A stretch of DNA of 64,000 bases, from assembly GCF_003340495.1 (NCBI RefSeq), contig NZ_QASA01000001.1, forward strand, positions 4,526,001-4,590,000, written 5' to 3'. Under the pieces are notes generated by a model. The model was not told the DNA's origin. It searched no databases and worked only from the letters and a program-made list of their open reading frames with translations. Every line of letters begins with the position of its first letter. Within the stretch, counting starts at the first letter, position 1. Position numbers and translations under genes: made by a program. Of this stretch, positions 2,969 through 33,163 are shown piece by piece. The stretch is from Adhaeribacter pallidiroseus. Lineage in GTDB: Bacteria; Bacteroidota; Bacteroidia; Cytophagales; Hymenobacteraceae.

Positions 2969-3488
2969 TACCCAGTAATATTAAAGGAACAAACGATTAA
3001 ATGTTGCAGTAAAGGAAAGATGCATAAGTAGAAAACGTAAATTTTTCATCATGTTATTTCGATTTTAAAACCTAAAATTTTACTAATTAATCTAGCTGTG
3101 CTTGTTGTTTTAAAATATAAATGCGTTCCACGCAAGAATGCTTTAACAATCTTTAAACAAATATATCACCAGATCGCTCTACTACAAAATAGCAATTTTA
3201 TTAGATCGCTTAATAATTCTGTTTTATATATTGCAAACAAAATAATACAATAATAACCTTTGTTAAACAACAATTTATCTAGATAATCTTGGTACATCGT
3301 TCTTGAAGCTAAAAGGCTAAAACTAGAAGCTAAAAGGCTAAAATGTATTTGTAAAAAGAGAACTAGAATAAAGAGAATTGAAACAAGATGTTTAATGAAT
3401 AGCTAATACTTGCTTAAGATTATTTGATGAGCACTTAAACACCAGAATGAGTTTTATGGAATAAAATATTAATAATTTTTTAAAAAAT
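2969..3488. other. Intergenic stretch with a short tandem repeat
   Basis: This AT-rich spacer lies between divergent genes. It contains an exact 18-base direct repeat (gaagctaaaaggctaaaa at 3305-3322 and 3326-3343, separated by cta). No gene is supported; the 94-codon minus-strand frame at 3480-3764 lies across the attenuator and pheA and is a shadow. Confidence 0.5.
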
Positions 3489-3520
3489 TTTGCTTCTTAA
3501 AAATTCGTTCTTTAATATTG
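3489..3520 (+). promoter_or_regulatory. Putative promoter of the aromatic operon
   Basis: TTTG at 3489-3492 is followed 20 bases later by TAATATTG at 3513-3520. This fits the Bacteroidota -33/-7 pattern TTTG-N19-21-TAnnTTTG except for one base in the -7 box. Transcription would then start near 3527, just ahead of the leader peptide at 3540. Confidence 0.4.
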
Positions 3521-3539
3521 GGGCACCAAGTTGATGATA

Positions 3540-3605
3540 ATGAAACGAATAACAAACGCTTTCTTTTTTTACTATTACTTTTTTAGTACCTCTCCGGGGT
3601 CTTAA
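3540..3605 (+). CDS. Phe/Tyr-rich leader peptide of the aromatic operon
   Basis: ATG at 3540 opens a 21-codon frame ending in TAA at 3603-3605. Residues 8-15 are FFFYYYFF, eight consecutive aromatic codons, in a peptide otherwise rich in Ser, Thr and Asn. The peptide lies directly upstream of an intrinsic terminator and of pheA, the same arrangement as E. coli pheL-pheA. By analogy, ribosomes stalling at the Phe/Tyr codons when charged tRNA is scarce would favour readthrough. The frame is too short for standard gene callers. There is no strong Shine-Dalgarno, which is usual in Bacteroidota. The mixed Phe/Tyr content suggests control by both end products. The sequence is direct observation; the mechanism is inferred. 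Confidence 0.8.
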   Translation: MKRITNAFFFYYYFFSTSPGS

Positions 3606-3646
3606 GAGAATAGTATTGCGTTTGAAATAACAAGATATAAAACTCC

Positions 3647-3675
3647 AAAGCCCCGAAGATCGGGGCTTTTTTTTT
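3647..3675 (+). terminator. Attenuator terminator before pheA
   Basis: AAAGCCCCGA (3647-3656) pairs perfectly with TCGGGGCTTT (3660-3669) across a 3-base loop, followed by further T residues to 3675. The hairpin ends 2 bases before the pheA ATG at 3678, so it can only act on transcripts initiated upstream. A competing pairing is visible: CGGGGT at 3595-3600 can pair with GCCCCG at 3650-3655 (one G-U), plus nearby U-A pairs. That segment overlaps the last codons of the leader peptide, as an antiterminator should. Confidence 0.85.
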
Positions 3676-3677
3676 AC

Positions 3678-4514
3678 ATGATGAATAACACTATTAAAAT
3701 AGCCATTCAGGGTGGCCCAGCTTCTTTTCACGATGTAGTGGCCCAGCAGTACTTTGCCGGGCAATCCATTGAGATTGTACCTTGCATGACTTTTCAGCGG
3801 GTTTGCGCCGCGGTAAAAAACCGCGAATCCGATTACGGAGTAATGGCCATAGAAAATGCCTTAGCGGGCAGTATTTTAAATAATTACTCGCTCTTGCAAG
3901 ACTATCCGGTTTCCATTATCGGCGAAGCGTATCTTCCTATTGAGCAAAATTTATTAGCCTTACCGGGTCAATCTTTAGCAGATATAAAACTGGTGCGTTC
4001 GCACCCGATGGCCTTATTGCAGTGCACTAATTTCCTGGAAGAAAATCCGCACATTCAAGCGTTAGAATCGGCGGATACGGCGGAAAGCGCCCGGGAGATC
4101 CGGGAAAATAATTTGGTTGGGGTTGGTGCTATTGCCAGCCGCATGGCCGCGCAGCGCTACGAACTGGAAATTGTAGAAGAACGCGTTGAGAATTACAAAG
4201 AAAATTACACCCGTTTTATGATAATATCGCGGAAGCCGCTTGCCGACAAAAGCCAGGCAAACAAGGCTTCCGTTATTTTCACGCTGCACCACCGCGCCGG
4301 CGAATTAGCTAAAATATTAGATGTTTTCCGGGATGTAGCCATTAATTTATCTTTGATTCAGTCCATTCCTATCCTGAGCCGGCCAACAGAATTTGCTATT
4401 TTACTGGATCTGGAATGGGAAGATTATAGTACTTTTGAAGAAGCCATAGGTTTAGTTACGCCTTTGATTGTGGAAATGAAAATATTAGGCATTTACCAAA
4501 GAGGAAAAAGATGA
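3678..4514 (+). CDS. pheA: Prephenate dehydratase
   Basis: This is a monofunctional prephenate dehydratase (278 aa) converting prephenate to phenylpyruvate, the committed step of Phe synthesis. The N-terminal catalytic part (residues 1-180) shows ESDYGVMAIENALAGSI and the catalytic Thr-Arg-Phe motif in ENYTRFMIIS. A C-terminal ACT domain (about 195-270; KASVIFTLHHRAGELAKIL) should bind Phe for feedback inhibition. There is no fused chorismate mutase; that activity lies in the third gene of the operon. The stop overlaps the next start (ATGA), so translation is coupled. Expression is probably controlled by the leader peptide and terminator directly upstream. Confidence 0.95.
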   Translation: MMNNTIKIAIQGGPASFHDVVAQQYFAGQSIEIVPCMTFQRVCAAVKNRESDYGVMAIENALAGSILNNYSLLQDYPVSIIGEAYLPIEQNLLALPGQSLADIKLVRSHPMALLQCTNFLEENPHIQALESADTAESAREIRENNLVGVGAIASRMAAQRYELEIVEERVENYKENYTRFMIISRKPLADKSQANKASVIFTLHHRAGELAKILDVFRDVAINLSLIQSIPILSRPTEFAILLDLEWEDYSTFEEAIGLVTPLIVEMKILGIYQRGKR

Positions 4515-5686
4515 TCATTGCCAAAGCAGACCGGCTGAACCAAGTTCAGGAATATTACTTCGCTCGCAAGCTGGCCGAAGTACGAGCTTTAATGGCGCAA
4601 GGCAAAAAAATAATTAATCTGGGCATTGGTGATCCGGACTTACCCGCGTCGAAAAATACCGTGCAAGCGCTTAATGCTTCCGCAGAACTGCCAACGAGTC
4701 ACGGGTACCAACCTTACCGGTCTATACCAGCATTACGGGTGGCCATGGCCGATTGGTATGCACAAACTTACGACGTAACGTTAAACCCGGAAACGGAAGT
4801 GCTACCTTTATTAGGCTCTAAAGAAGGGGTATTCCATATTTCGTTAGCTTTTTTAAATCCGGGCGACAAAGTGTTAGTCCCGAATCCGGGTTACCCGGCT
4901 TATGCCGCAGTAACAAAGTTAGTAGGTGCCGAACCCGTTTATTTTGATTTAACCGCCGAAAATAACTGGTTACCCAATTTAGATGTTTTAAGCCAACAAG
5001 ATTTGAGCGGGGTAAAGCTGATGTGGCTAAACTACCCGAACATGCCTACCGGCGCTTTAGCCAGCGAAGCTGATTTTTTAAAAATTACTGATTTTGCCCG
5101 GACCCACAACATCTTAATTGTGCACGATAATCCTTATAGTTTGGTGCTTAATACCAAACCGCCGGTAAGTATATTGCATGTGCCGGGCGCCCTGGATTGT
5201 TGCCTGGAACTTAACTCCTTAAGCAAATCGTTTAATATGGCCGGTTGGCGGGTTGGCATGGTACTGGGGCAGAAGGATTATATTGATGCCATTATCGCGG
5301 TAAAAAGTAATTTAGACTCCGGCATGTTTTTACCAGTACAACAAGCGGCCATTGCGGCTTTAAAAAATCCGGAAAGCTGGCACGCCGAACGAAACGCGGT
5401 TTATCGCCGCCGCCGGGAGTTAATTTACCAGTTACTGGATTTACTCGGTTGTAAATACGCTACCGAAGCGACGGGCATGTTTGTCTGGGCGCGGGTACCC
5501 GACGACATAGCCGATGTGGAAGATTTTTTAAATTCGATTCTCTACGAAGCCTATGTGTTTCTAACACCCGGTAAAATATTTGGATCTAACGGCGAACGGT
5601 ACGTACGCGTATCAGTTTGCGCTACTGAAGAAAATATAAATCAAGCAATTCAAAATATTCATCAATTTTTAACTGTTACAAAATGA
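4511..5686 (+). CDS. PLP aminotransferase (class I/II), probably aromatic
   Basis: This 391-residue fold-type I aminotransferase shows IGIGDPDLP near the N-terminus, NPGYPAYAA for the substrate/PLP loop, HDNPYS, the PLP lysine in SLSKSFNMAGWRVG, and the C-terminal carboxylate-binding region RVSVC. Placed between pheA and DAHP synthase with 4-base overlaps on both sides, it most likely transaminates phenylpyruvate and/or 4-hydroxyphenylpyruvate or prephenate. The family also contains LL-diaminopimelate and aspartate aminotransferases, so substrate choice is inferred from context. Confidence 0.88.
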   Translation: MIIAKADRLNQVQEYYFARKLAEVRALMAQGKKIINLGIGDPDLPASKNTVQALNASAELPTSHGYQPYRSIPALRVAMADWYAQTYDVTLNPETEVLPLLGSKEGVFHISLAFLNPGDKVLVPNPGYPAYAAVTKLVGAEPVYFDLTAENNWLPNLDVLSQQDLSGVKLMWLNYPNMPTGALASEADFLKITDFARTHNILIVHDNPYSLVLNTKPPVSILHVPGALDCCLELNSLSKSFNMAGWRVGMVLGQKDYIDAIIAVKSNLDSGMFLPVQQAAIAALKNPESWHAERNAVYRRRRELIYQLLDLLGCKYATEATGMFVWARVPDDIADVEDFLNSILYEAYVFLTPGKIFGSNGERYVRVSVCATEENINQAIQNIHQFLTVTK

Positions 5687-6804
5687 GCCCAAAACCTCAA
5701 ATCGATGTCCTGACCGAATCTGCTTTAATTAATGCAGACGGCTCTCCCCTTATTATTGCCGGCCCATGCAGCGCCGAGTCGGAAGAACAAGTTATGGCAA
5801 CTGCCCACGGCATTAAAGCAATTCCGGGCGTAAATATCTACCGGGCTGGTATCTGGAAGCCCCGTACCCGGCCAAATTCTTTTGAAGGTGTAGGTGTACC
5901 CGGCTTGAAATGGTTAAAAAAAGTAAAAGCGGAAACCGGTCTGCGGGTAGCTACTGAAGTGGCTAACGCCATGCACGTGTACGAATCGTTAAAAGCGGGT
6001 ATTGATGTCATGTGGATTGGTGCCCGGACTACGGTAAACCCTTTCACGGTACAGGAAATTGCCGATGCGTTGCGCGGCACCGATATTCCGGTATTAGTAA
6101 AAAACCCGGTTAATCCGGATTTACAATTATGGATTGGGGCGATTGAGCGGTTAAACCAGGCTGGTTTACGCCAGATTGGAGCTATTCACCGGGGTTTCTC
6201 TACTTTCGATAATGCGCCTTACCGTAATTTACCAAAATGGAACAGCGCTATTGAATTCAAACGTTTGTTACCCGAAATTCCGTTAATCTGCGACCCGAGT
6301 CACATTGCCGGTAACCGTGAATTATTACTGCCAGTTGCGCAAAAAGCCATGGACTTAGCTATGGACGGTTTAATGATTGAAACGCATATCGATCCATCGG
6401 TAGCTTTGAGCGATGCCGCCCAGCAAGTAACTCCGGAAAATCTAGGTAAAATGTTAGCCAGCATTCGTTTCCGGAAGCCAGAAGGCGAAGAACTAGCCGA
6501 AGAAGATCACCATTTACTTGATGAGATGCGGAAGCAAATTGATGAACTGGACGATGAAATGGTAGAGGTATTTGCCCGCCGGGCCCGTTTATCGCGCAAA
6601 ATTGGCGAGTACAAAAAAGCCCACAACATGACCATTTACCAGGTAAAACGTTGGGACCAGATTATCGCGGATCGTTTAGAGCACGCCCGTAAAAATGGTT
6701 TAGATGAAACATTCATGAAATCGGTTCTGCAAAGCATTCACCAGTATTCTATTAACATCCAAAACGATGTTTTGAATAAACAAGAACAAGCAGCTAAAGC
6801 ATAA
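5683..6804 (+). CDS. Bifunctional DAHP synthase / chorismate mutase
   Basis: The 373-residue fusion has a type I DAHP synthase domain at residues 15-265 (GPCSAES, KPRTRPNSFEG, CDPSHIAG) and a C-terminal AroQ-type chorismate mutase at 280-365 (LLDEMRKQIDELDDEM, RLSRKIGEYKK). It catalyses the first shikimate step (phosphoenolpyruvate plus erythrose 4-phosphate) and the chorismate to prephenate branch step. This domain order is typical of Bacteroidota. It is the last gene of the three-gene operon and is followed by a terminator. No prephenate dehydrogenase (tyrA) follows, although related genomes often have one nearby (recollection, not checked). Confidence 0.94.
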   Translation: MSPKPQIDVLTESALINADGSPLIIAGPCSAESEEQVMATAHGIKAIPGVNIYRAGIWKPRTRPNSFEGVGVPGLKWLKKVKAETGLRVATEVANAMHVYESLKAGIDVMWIGARTTVNPFTVQEIADALRGTDIPVLVKNPVNPDLQLWIGAIERLNQAGLRQIGAIHRGFSTFDNAPYRNLPKWNSAIEFKRLLPEIPLICDPSHIAGNRELLLPVAQKAMDLAMDGLMIETHIDPSVALSDAAQQVTPENLGKMLASIRFRKPEGEELAEEDHHLLDEMRKQIDELDDEMVEVFARRARLSRKIGEYKKAHNMTIYQVKRWDQIIADRLEHARKNGLDETFMKSVLQSIHQYSINIQNDVLNKQEQAAKA

Positions 6805-27622: not shown

Positions 27623-27639
27623 GAAGGGAAAAAAGGGGG

Positions 27640-27750
27640 TTGGCGGTTACCTACTCTCCCGCATGTGATTGCAGTACCATTGGCGCTACGGGGCTTAACT
27701 GCTCTGTTCGGAAAGGGAAGAGGTGAACACCCGCGCTATAACCACCATTA
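27640..27750 (-). rRNA. 5S ribosomal RNA
   Basis: The minus strand has the 5S pattern GTGTTCACCTCTTCCC, CCGAACAGAGCAGTTAAG and GGGAGAGTAGGT over about 110 bases, directly after the 23S gene. Ends are approximate. Confidence 0.92.
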
Positions 27751-27909
27751 CTATACGTTCCTGTTACCAGGAAAGAAGCGGACTCACGCCGCTTTGATGT
27801 TTGAAAGTTCTTAGGCTAGTACATAGTAGCTAGCATATTGTTTAACATAAATAGGTAAGAGAAGCAGAGCTCGAGTAAATCCGAGTGAAAAGGAAACGAA
27901 GGGCTTTTA

Positions 27910-30800
<2,891 letters not shown>

Positions 30801-30888
30801 AAATCGTTTACTCTTTACTCGTATTTTTGTCTACTCTAGTTTCTTCTCTTACCATTATGTCAAAGAACTTTAGCTTAAGTGGCAGGTT

Positions 30889-30910
30889 CTAAGTTGCAAG
30901 TTACAAGTTA
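30889..30910. repeat. Short dispersed repeat, copy C, in the rRNA spacer
   Basis: The core GTTGCAAGTTACA (30893-30905) is identical to copies at 25460-25472 and, inverted, 25636-25648. It lies between tRNA-Ala and 23S. A small hairpin (AGTAAAGAC 30965-30973 with GTCTTTACT 30979-30987) follows in the same spacer. Confidence 0.55.
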
Positions 30911-31012
30911 TCAATCACTGAATACTCGCTGCTTGCTCCTTTTAAACTGTTCCTTAAATCTAGTAGTAAAGACCCGCTGTCTTTACTGATGTATAATCTT
31001 TTAAATTAAGTG

Positions 31013-31086
31013 TGGAGAATAACGGAGTCGAACCGTTGACCTCCTGCGTGCAAAGCAGGCGCTCTAGCCAGCTGAGCTAATCCCCC
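31013..31086 (-). tRNA. tRNA-Ala (anticodon TGC)
   Basis: On the minus strand, GGGGGATTAGCTCAGCTGG opens the gene. The anticodon loop TTTGCAC gives TGC, and the T-arm has GGTTCGACTCC. It sits in the 16S-23S spacer, as usual in Bacteroidota. CCA is not encoded. Confidence 0.95.
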
Positions 31087-31099
31087 TAGTTTTATAGAG

Positions 31100-31173
31100 T
31101 GGGCCTGCCTGGACTCGAACCAGGGACCTCTACATTATCAGTGTAGCGCTCTAACCACCTGAGCTACAAGCCC
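31100..31173 (-). tRNA. tRNA-Ile (anticodon GAT)
   Basis: On the minus strand, GGGCTTGTAGCTCAGGTGG opens the gene. The anticodon loop CTGATAA gives GAT, and the T-arm has GGTTCGAGTCC. It is located between 16S and tRNA-Ala. Confidence 0.95.
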
Positions 31174-31381
31174 TCATCTTTTCGTTGAGTTGCCAGCGCC
31201 GGCTTCTAAGCTGTTAAGTCCTTTTCTGTTCCGTTCTGCCCGGCTTTTAGCTCTTTTGCTTACACGCAGCTGTGCTACCACTTCTTTTTGTTTGACTAAC
31301 CACCTGCTGTGGCTAATCTATTATTGTTTGAATAAGGGAAAGAGAATAGTAATCCAATCAAGAGTAGTAACAATCAGCTCC

Positions 31382-32903
<1,522 letters not shown>

Positions 32904-33163
32904 TATGATATAATTACGAGTATTCCTACTCTTATTTGTCTCGCTGGATTGTTACCCTTGCTCTCTTTTTTAACATAAGACCCTCTAACCCCGTAAGGTT
33001 AAATCTAGCACTTATGCGGTTTACTATTCTCTTCTTCCACTCATTCAAAGAACTTCTACCAACCCCTGCCGGATTGATCTTGTACTACTGCTAATTAGTA
33101 GCTCTCTCGTCATCGTTTCCTATCTCTCTCGTTAGAGAAATCCCTTCTTTTTGTTTGGGAGTG

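Follow-up and report, generated by a model that had tools for sequence, protein, structure and literature searches.

A putative ribosome-mediated transcription attenuator with mixed phenylalanine and tyrosine codons upstream of the pheA operon in Adhaeribacter pallidiroseus and its relatives

We analysed a 64,000-nucleotide stretch of the Adhaeribacter pallidiroseus genome (the window), near one end of which three overlapping + strand genes form an operon for aromatic amino-acid synthesis. Pfam matches identify the first gene (3678..4514) as a pheA-type prephenate dehydratase (PF00800) without a chorismate mutase domain, the second (4511..5686), which overlaps pheA by 4 bases, as a class I/II aminotransferase (PF00155), and the third (5683..6804), which overlaps the aminotransferase gene by 4 bases, as a DAHP synthase–chorismate mutase fusion (PF00793 + PF01817; CM_2). 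These assignments agree with the dehydratase, aminotransferase and DAHP synthase-mutase proposed in the original prediction for this DNA. No NCBIfam model scored over its own cut-off for the operon genes among the matches listed. The next long ORF with a Pfam match after the operon lies on the opposite strand, and the 6.4-Mb genome has a single tyrA-type match, which is outside this operon. Elsewhere in the window, an rRNA operon occupies 27638-32904 on the − strand, with 16S, two tRNAs, 23S and 5S all recovered as full-length matches.

Upstream of pheA, a + strand ORF of 21 codons (3540..3605), MKRITNAFFFYYYFFSTSPGS*, runs from an ATG at 3540 to a TAA at 3603-3605. It contains the predicted FFFYYYFF run as codons 8–15 (3561..3584; Phe Phe Phe Tyr Tyr Tyr Phe Phe), which both the fold scan and the genus comparison described below mark as the control codons; the leader is thus a short ORF with a codon run for amino acids that the operon makes. 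There is an in-frame ATG at 3534 too, and the start at 3540 is the one common to 8 genus members (GTG in one), all of which keep the leader ORF. When the 350 bases upstream of pheA were shuffled with dinucleotide composition preserved, a short ORF with 8/9 aromatic codons appeared in 1 of 2000 shuffles, and one with 7/9 in 5 of 2000 shuffles of a second set. On both strands of the 64-kb window, the leader is the sole ORF of 10–45 codons with at least 7/9 aromatic codons. A 94-aa antisense ORF that lies over the leader (3480-3764) was judged to be mechanical. At 3489..3520 (+ strand), TTTG – 20 nt – TAATATTG resembles what we take to be a Bacteroidota-type promoter consensus; such patterns occur near chance frequency (6 matches in 64 kb, this site included, versus 4.7 expected), and all 8/8 genus members keep the ATTG of the −7 element unchanged. 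On this weak evidence, 3489..3520 is a candidate promoter of the leader transcript.

Between the leader and pheA, sequence and fold predict an intrinsic terminator (3647..3675, + strand; −15.6 kcal/mol) composed of a 10-bp hairpin (3647-3669; AAAGCCCCGA-AGA-TCGGGGCTTT) and a nine-T run (3667-3675), after which come AC and the pheA ATG at 3678; the hairpin ends 8 bases and the T-run 2 bases before this ATG. In computed folds, segment 2 (3595..3608, + strand), the 5′ arm of an antiterminator (CGGGG, CUU, GAG), lies over the last leader codons and the stop codon and pairs with segment 3 (3643..3655, + strand), the 3′ arm (CUC, AAG, CCCCG), which has 3647-3655 in common with the terminator. A third element, the protector (1:2) helix, pairs AACGC (3555..3559, + strand) with GCGTT (3618..3622, + strand). 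The original prediction had named the hairpin and T-run, a competing CGGGGT/GCCCCG pairing that overlaps the last leader codons, and the mutual exclusion of the two structures. The first was confirmed in the sequence, the second lies at 3595-3600 (codons 19-21) and 3650-3655, and both structures form as claimed upon folding, with 11 pairs in the antiterminator as against the six named. Folding of the 201-nt leader RNA gives −48.4 kcal/mol, compared to −32.4 ± 3.7 kcal/mol for shuffled sequences (4.3 s.d. lower, with 0 of 200 shuffles as low).

We computed folds of the nascent leader RNA for several positions of a ribosome. Stalling a ribosome at codons 8–13 of an RNA that ended at 3657 gave pairing of segment 2 with segment 3 at −18.7 to −19.7 kcal/mol. 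A ribosome on the stop codon covered segment 2 and removed the segment 2/3 pairing, and with no ribosome, segment 2 was sequestered in a large hairpin closed by AACGC/GCGTT. When RNA from 3500 to 3657 was folded, both the ribosome-free state and the state with a ribosome on the stop codon had segment 3 paired with UUGGGGC at 3518-3524; this result suggests that the pairing would be lost only with a transcription start downstream of that stretch, in keeping with the weak promoter evidence. Once segment 4 was present, no fold was more stable than the terminator in any ribosome state that we tried, and antitermination would therefore depend on the order in which the segments are synthesized.

In the mechanism that we propose, RNA polymerase would make the leader and a ribosome would follow on the 21-codon ORF. 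If both tRNAs were charged, the ribosome would reach the stop codon and cover segment 2, leaving segment 3 to pair with segment 4, and transcription would end before pheA. If either tRNA were in short supply, the ribosome would stall on codons 8–15 and block the AACGC/GCGTT protector helix, allowing segment 2 to take segment 3 before segment 4 is made; with segment 3 captured, the polymerase would read on into the pheA, aminotransferase and DAHP synthase/chorismate mutase genes. Without translation, the protector helix would hide segment 2 and the terminator would form. To our knowledge, ribosome–polymerase coupling in Bacteroidia has been little studied.

We then compared 133 loci upstream of pheA, 63 from named contigs and 70 from the window's family. 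The latter represent 70 of 118 genomes with a pheA match (150 searched), taken best matches first and then picked by hand, and L002 was left out of the 133-locus set as a duplicate of L070's genome. A leader was scored as a short ORF with at least 6/9 Phe, Tyr or Trp codons, and a hairpin and T-run behind it were scored by a lenient rule. Aromatic leaders were present in 118 of the 133 loci (70/70 in the family and 48/63 among the others). These loci contain 145 leaders, every one of which is followed by a hairpin and T-run under the lenient rule. Two loci with under 300 bases upstream were left out of the comparison with controls. Under the 6/9 rule, leaders were found in 118/131 loci versus 1.6/131 in shuffles, 2/131 on the reverse strand and 0/129 inside pheA; under a rule of at least 7/9, the corresponding values were 109/131 versus 0.15, 0 and 0. 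Thus, the original expectation that the aromatic run and terminator are conserved upstream of pheA in relatives, despite drift elsewhere, was borne out strongly.

Fifteen of the 133 loci lacked a scored leader, two of them being short of upstream DNA, and five leaderless loci (L036, L038, L048, L056 and L061) have a weaker aromatic ORF. In three Algoriphagus loci, an open frame extends right to pheA. No aromatic leader was found upstream of pheA in L016, L017 and L019 (Algoriphagus) or in L146, L152, L179 and L205 (family f2), an apparent loss of the leader in part of the order, as judged from these sequences. We also sampled the phylum, in which 340 of 395 genomes had a pheA match, taking 108 loci among the matches listed (down to E ~1e-40); the more distant PheA proteins of families f3 and f6 (E about 1e-17 to 1e-30) fall outside this sample. 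Leaders were found in 66 of these 108 loci: 56/56 from six families of the window's class, 3/7 from another family of its order, and 7/45 from other classes, two of which are doubtful. PheA matches in ORFs of at least 668 aa were skipped except in five loci (L136, L137, L138, L140 and L150), where part of the sequence upstream of the match may be coding. Five loci from other classes (L135, L137, L150, L206 and L217) combine an aromatic leader with a PheA that is 42–51% identical to the window's, and possible sources are transfer of the operon together with its leader or mis-binned contigs.

Relatives differ in how far the terminator hairpin lies from pheA, the distance ranging from about 5 to 105 bases. 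This variation bears on the idea that control is mainly translational, with the hairpin hiding the pheA start and leader translation or reinitiation opening it without any termination. Bacteroidota make little use of Shine-Dalgarno pairing, and a hairpin beside the start, as in the window where it ends 8 bases before the ATG, could hinder initiation. Bacteroidetes leader genes have also been described, in the portion of the article available to us, as peaking 11–14 bp from the next gene (PMC4833913). However, the hairpin is followed by a T-run, and a T-run together with a variable distance from hairpin to pheA fits termination rather than start-site occlusion. We consider translational control quite improbable, and it is as a transcription terminator that the hairpin would work.

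We next scanned ribosome position codon by codon, with an assumed ribosome footprint of 13 nt downstream of the first base of the A-site codon. In the window's leader, the terminator 5′ arm was paired with segment 2 at 0.64–0.79 for A-site codons 7–15 (Ala7 and the aromatic run), at 0.04–0.16 for codons 2–6, and at 0.00 from codon 16 to the stop; the start codon (codon 1) was partly permissive, with a pairing of 0.57. A footprint 2 nt shorter or longer moved the edges by roughly one codon and changed codon 1 to 0.04 or 0.73. Stalls on Tyr codons were as permissive as stalls on Phe codons. E. coli pheL, which served as a positive control with identical code, was on for codons 4–14 and off at Pro15 and the stop, a codon-by-codon profile much like that of the window's leader. 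In these computed folds, therefore, antiterminator and terminator exclude each other and the position of the ribosome sets which of them forms.

The scan was extended to 144 leaders; one of the 145, with a weak terminator, was left out here and in the arm-duplex test below. Mean pairing was 0.68 at aromatic codons, 0.11 after the run and 0.03 at the stop, and codons preceding the run averaged 0.63. In 122/144 leaders, the last permissive codon was the last aromatic one or lay up to 2 codons beyond it (13 of the rest earlier and 9 later), the spacing from run to stop varies from 2 to 15 codons, and sliding the aromatic run along the leader gave no better fit in 124/144. The left edge of the sensing window differs between leaders: G001, G002, G004 and G005 are permissive before the run too, and G003 is permissive only from codon 10 on. 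We dropped the general claim that the sensing window starts where the aromatic run starts, which is true of the window's leader, bar codons 1 and 7, and fails as a general rule. Across 145 leaders, the arm was paired at 0.75 in the stalled state, at 0.43 when the intervening DNA was shuffled, and at 0.13 with the ribosome at the stop (a state computed for all but 7), a drop that is partly trivial because less RNA remains to pair. Stalled-state energy was better than that of shuffles (p ≤ 0.05) in 114/145 leaders and not in 31, and arm pairing was better in 88/145 and not in 57.

To look for covariation, we used an alignment (A3) of 42 sequences from genera g1, g3 and g6, without four tandem g3 loci. 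One protector-helix pair is GC in 19 sequences, AU in 14 and unpaired in 9; all 14 AU cases are from genus g3, and these compensatory changes may thus represent one or a few events. Cells with two-sided change numbered 14 versus 5.5 by shuffling, yet shuffles also yielded 1.0 such pair, and the protector pair is broken in six of nine g6 sequences. Within A3, 92.9% of cells of the protector helix and antiterminator were paired, compared to 29.5–50.1% when the arms were slid. A matching partner was present in 32 of the 35 leaders that have the protector 3′ element (A[AG]CGC with GCGTT and A[AG]CAC with GTGT), a motif (AACRC/GYGUU) that was chosen after viewing the alignment and whose 3′ element occurs in only 35/145 leaders. 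The protector helix hides segment 2 in folds of the untranslated RNA and shows compensatory change at one pair. Seven antiterminator pairs were kept in 93.9% of A3 cells, and because their positions are invariant or changed on one side, with none changed on both, this alignment neither proves nor disproves the helix. Terminator covariation counts were discarded because a gap in A3 shifts the arms out of register.

A test of arm specificity used the 144 leaders collapsed to 128 distinct ones. The segment 2/segment 3 duplex averaged −13.9 kcal/mol for cognate arms and −9.2 kcal/mol with arms from other species. Cognate duplexes were better than shuffled arms (p ≤ 0.05) in 89/128 cases and in the best 5% against non-cognate arms in 66/128. 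The window's own segments 2 and 3 were better than shuffled arms (0.02) but not better than foreign ones, 3/17 of which, of like composition, were as good.

Codon changes within the leader bear on whether the ORF is under selection. Among 8 genomes of the genus, codons 9–15 show Phe–Tyr swaps and synonymous changes and always encode Phe or Tyr, codon 8 being the sole position of the run that departs from aromatic residues (Ala, Thr or Asn), and Tyr11, Tyr12 and Phe15 are invariant in 8/8. Across 25 loci of genus g3 (a table made without the 4 tandem g3 loci), seven aromatic positions are all Phe or Tyr except for one Leu. A chance short ORF in T-rich DNA, sitting beside an ordinary terminator and regulating nothing, might be suspected from the T-rich run and from seven other short ORFs in the 64-kb window that reach 6/9 aromatic codons. 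Such a coincidence is hard to square with the 118/131 loci versus 1.6 in shuffles, with exchanges confined to Phe, Tyr and synonymous codons apart from codon 8, and with the covarying protector pair, and we give it practically no weight. Residues of the leader peptide beyond the aromatic run drift widely among relatives, which also argues against a peptide that acts in trans, a mode known from peTrpL of Sinorhizobium (PMC7298713, in the text open to us). Direct binding of a ligand to the leader RNA, as in a riboswitch or T-box, would be the related possibility, and those families had no match at curated cut-offs in the window; we regard action in trans or by a ligand as highly improbable.

A less remote alternative is that attenuation acts as proposed and responds to one amino acid, probably Phe, with the Tyr codons as neutral spacers. 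Phe and Tyr codons are one base apart, the E. coli pheL peptide contains seven Phe but lacks Tyr, and the tyrA of the window's genome lies outside this operon, all of which would suit a single signal. Against it, 130/130 distinct leader peptides contain at least two Phe and at least two Tyr residues (means of 4.5 and 3.8, respectively), as do 72/72 leaders of the phylum sample. Within the genus, Tyr11 and Tyr12 never change, though neither does Phe15, and the equal permissiveness of Tyr-codon and Phe-codon stalls in the fold scan also speaks against neutral spacers. Furthermore, tyrA lies within the operon in 5/8 loci examined downstream (L010, L024, L030, L031 and L052), and both amino acids draw on the operon's DAHP synthase/chorismate mutase. 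In the other three (L002, L012 and L064), the downstream ORFs tested encode DAHP synthase-mutase, followed by RsgA in L012 and L064. Phe and Tyr codons are thus retained whether or not tyrA belongs to the operon. We therefore judge a single signal unlikely, and both amino acids probably count.

Taken together, we are highly confident that ribosome-mediated transcription attenuation, with charged tRNA-Phe and tRNA-Tyr as the signals, controls the pheA/aminotransferase/DAHP synthase–chorismate mutase operon. The ORF, the terminator, the alternative helices with their dependence on ribosome position in folds, the conservation, and one covarying protector pair support this reading. By this reading, the leader should be transcribed and translated, and starvation should raise readthrough.

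Two complete leader–terminator units stand in series in 27 of the 118 loci with leaders: 18/20 in genus g5, 4/4 in g4 and 4/29 in g3, plus L030 (in full L082, L088, L092-L094, L097-L099, L102, L104, L105, L107-L109, L111, L112, L114, L116, L118, L123, L126, L130-L134 and L030). L166 from the phylum sample is tandem as well. Terminator 1 lies only 11–36 bases from ATG 2, leaving little room for a promoter between the units. In the remaining g5 loci, L100 and L115, the run of the second unit appears by eye to have decayed, for example with Cys or His in place of Phe or Tyr. Stalled-state energy was better than that of shuffles for 15/27 upstream copies and 23/27 downstream copies, and the upstream units are thus less well supported. 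A division of labour, with one leader for Phe and one for Tyr, was unsupported since Phe and Tyr codons occur together in both copies. On a FastTree PheA tree, with long branches flagged, a minimum of 2 changes between single and tandem states was required; L166 and the g4 locus L134 were left out of this count, and L100 and L115 were scored as tandem. We tentatively suggest, while stopping short of calling it probable, that the dual Phe/Tyr attenuator is ancestral in Bacteroidia and has been doubled, apparently more than once, with the result that the polymerase must escape twice.

Like the window's element, E. coli pheL-pheA (RF01859) has a short leader ORF, a run of control codons and a terminator before pheA. 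Rfam Phe_leader (RF01859) matched the window element at 39.5 bits (E 2.7e-5) with the whole model covered, short of its cut-off of 55, and other sub-cut-off Rfam matches (rimP, asX2 and others) were judged to be terminator look-alikes. The two systems differ in that the pheL peptide lacks Tyr, whereas the leaders of the window and its relatives mix Phe and Tyr; Phe is the sole aromatic control residue in none of them, as 130/130 have Tyr. The operons differ too, in that the window's has a DAHP synthase–chorismate mutase fusion and a mutase-less dehydratase, unlike E. coli pheL-pheA. The description 'pheL-like' in the original prediction thus holds for the working plan and fold profile and fails for the Rfam cut-off and the Tyr codons. 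Among 20 loci searched (19 pheA and 1 trp), none scored at any Rfam cut-off.

Bacteroid-trp RNA (RF01692), presumably a trp-operon leader, is like the window element in being a Bacteroidetes cis-regulatory motif and belongs to a different operon; it had no match at cut-off in the window and none at E ≤ 10 for 3400-3760. Candidate attenuators in Bacteroidetes/Chlorobi are reportedly mentioned in an abstract by Vitreschak (2004, FEMS Microbiol Lett). Bacteroid-trp itself is listed in an earlier survey (Weinberg 2010; PMC2864571). Naville and Gautheret (2010; PMC2965389) stated, in the sections accessible to us, that leader-peptide systems had, to their knowledge, previously been demonstrated in Proteobacteria and Actinobacteria alone, and added a Firmicutes case of their own. 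In Bacteroides thetaiotaomicron, mapped transcripts with long 5′ UTRs contain short ORFs 'reminiscent of leader peptides' (PMC7366714), a case from the same phylum in which the accessible text does not name pheA. A close precedent comes from Flavobacterium psychrophilum and other Flavobacteriaceae, in which pheA is preceded by a conserved, structured 5′ element without Rfam hits; the same paper sees 'strong clues' that amino-acid operons are controlled by leader-peptide attenuation (PMC9723704, as far as its main text goes). The original statement that such attenuation is little documented in Bacteroidota is thus only partly right. That element shares gene and phylum with ours, and the main text describes neither a peptide or its codon content nor an antiterminator, and mentions no spread outside the family. 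No prior report of dual Phe/Tyr leaders or of tandem leader-peptide attenuators was found in the accessible portion of the open-licence literature; Phe and Tyr in every leader, spread through the class, and tandem units appear to be new here.

We looked for leaders before three other operons of the window's genome (trpE, hisG and tyrA). Before trpE (match at G000:C1 4298086-4298526), a trp leader, MKQLYTAGWWHLLEC, whose ORF carries GWW, precedes a strong terminator (L244 2206-2253, − strand), and a second aromatic-rich short ORF, MHYSFFRTNYYWQG, lies between this terminator and trpE (L244, about 75–120 bases upstream). Before hisG there is a candidate his leader with AVHFHHYHHSFRY (HFHHYHH; L243 1149-1256, + strand), behind which a short AGGAG/CTCCT hairpin with TTTT was seen on inspection but failed the energy rule. 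No aromatic leader was found upstream of tyrA. With trp and his leader ORFs in the same genome, leader attenuation may be a general mode of control there.

These results suggest that classic ribosome-mediated attenuation is a standard control of aromatic amino-acid synthesis across Bacteroidia, and that the micro-ORFs upstream of these operons are regulatory. If our tentative reading of the tandem loci is true, the doubled units would act as a two-stage (AND-like) switch with a steeper response, triggered when either tRNA runs short. Leaders that respond to two amino acids, together with tandem copies of them, would be natural material for testing how an attenuator's sharpness depends on its codon mixture and its number of copies.
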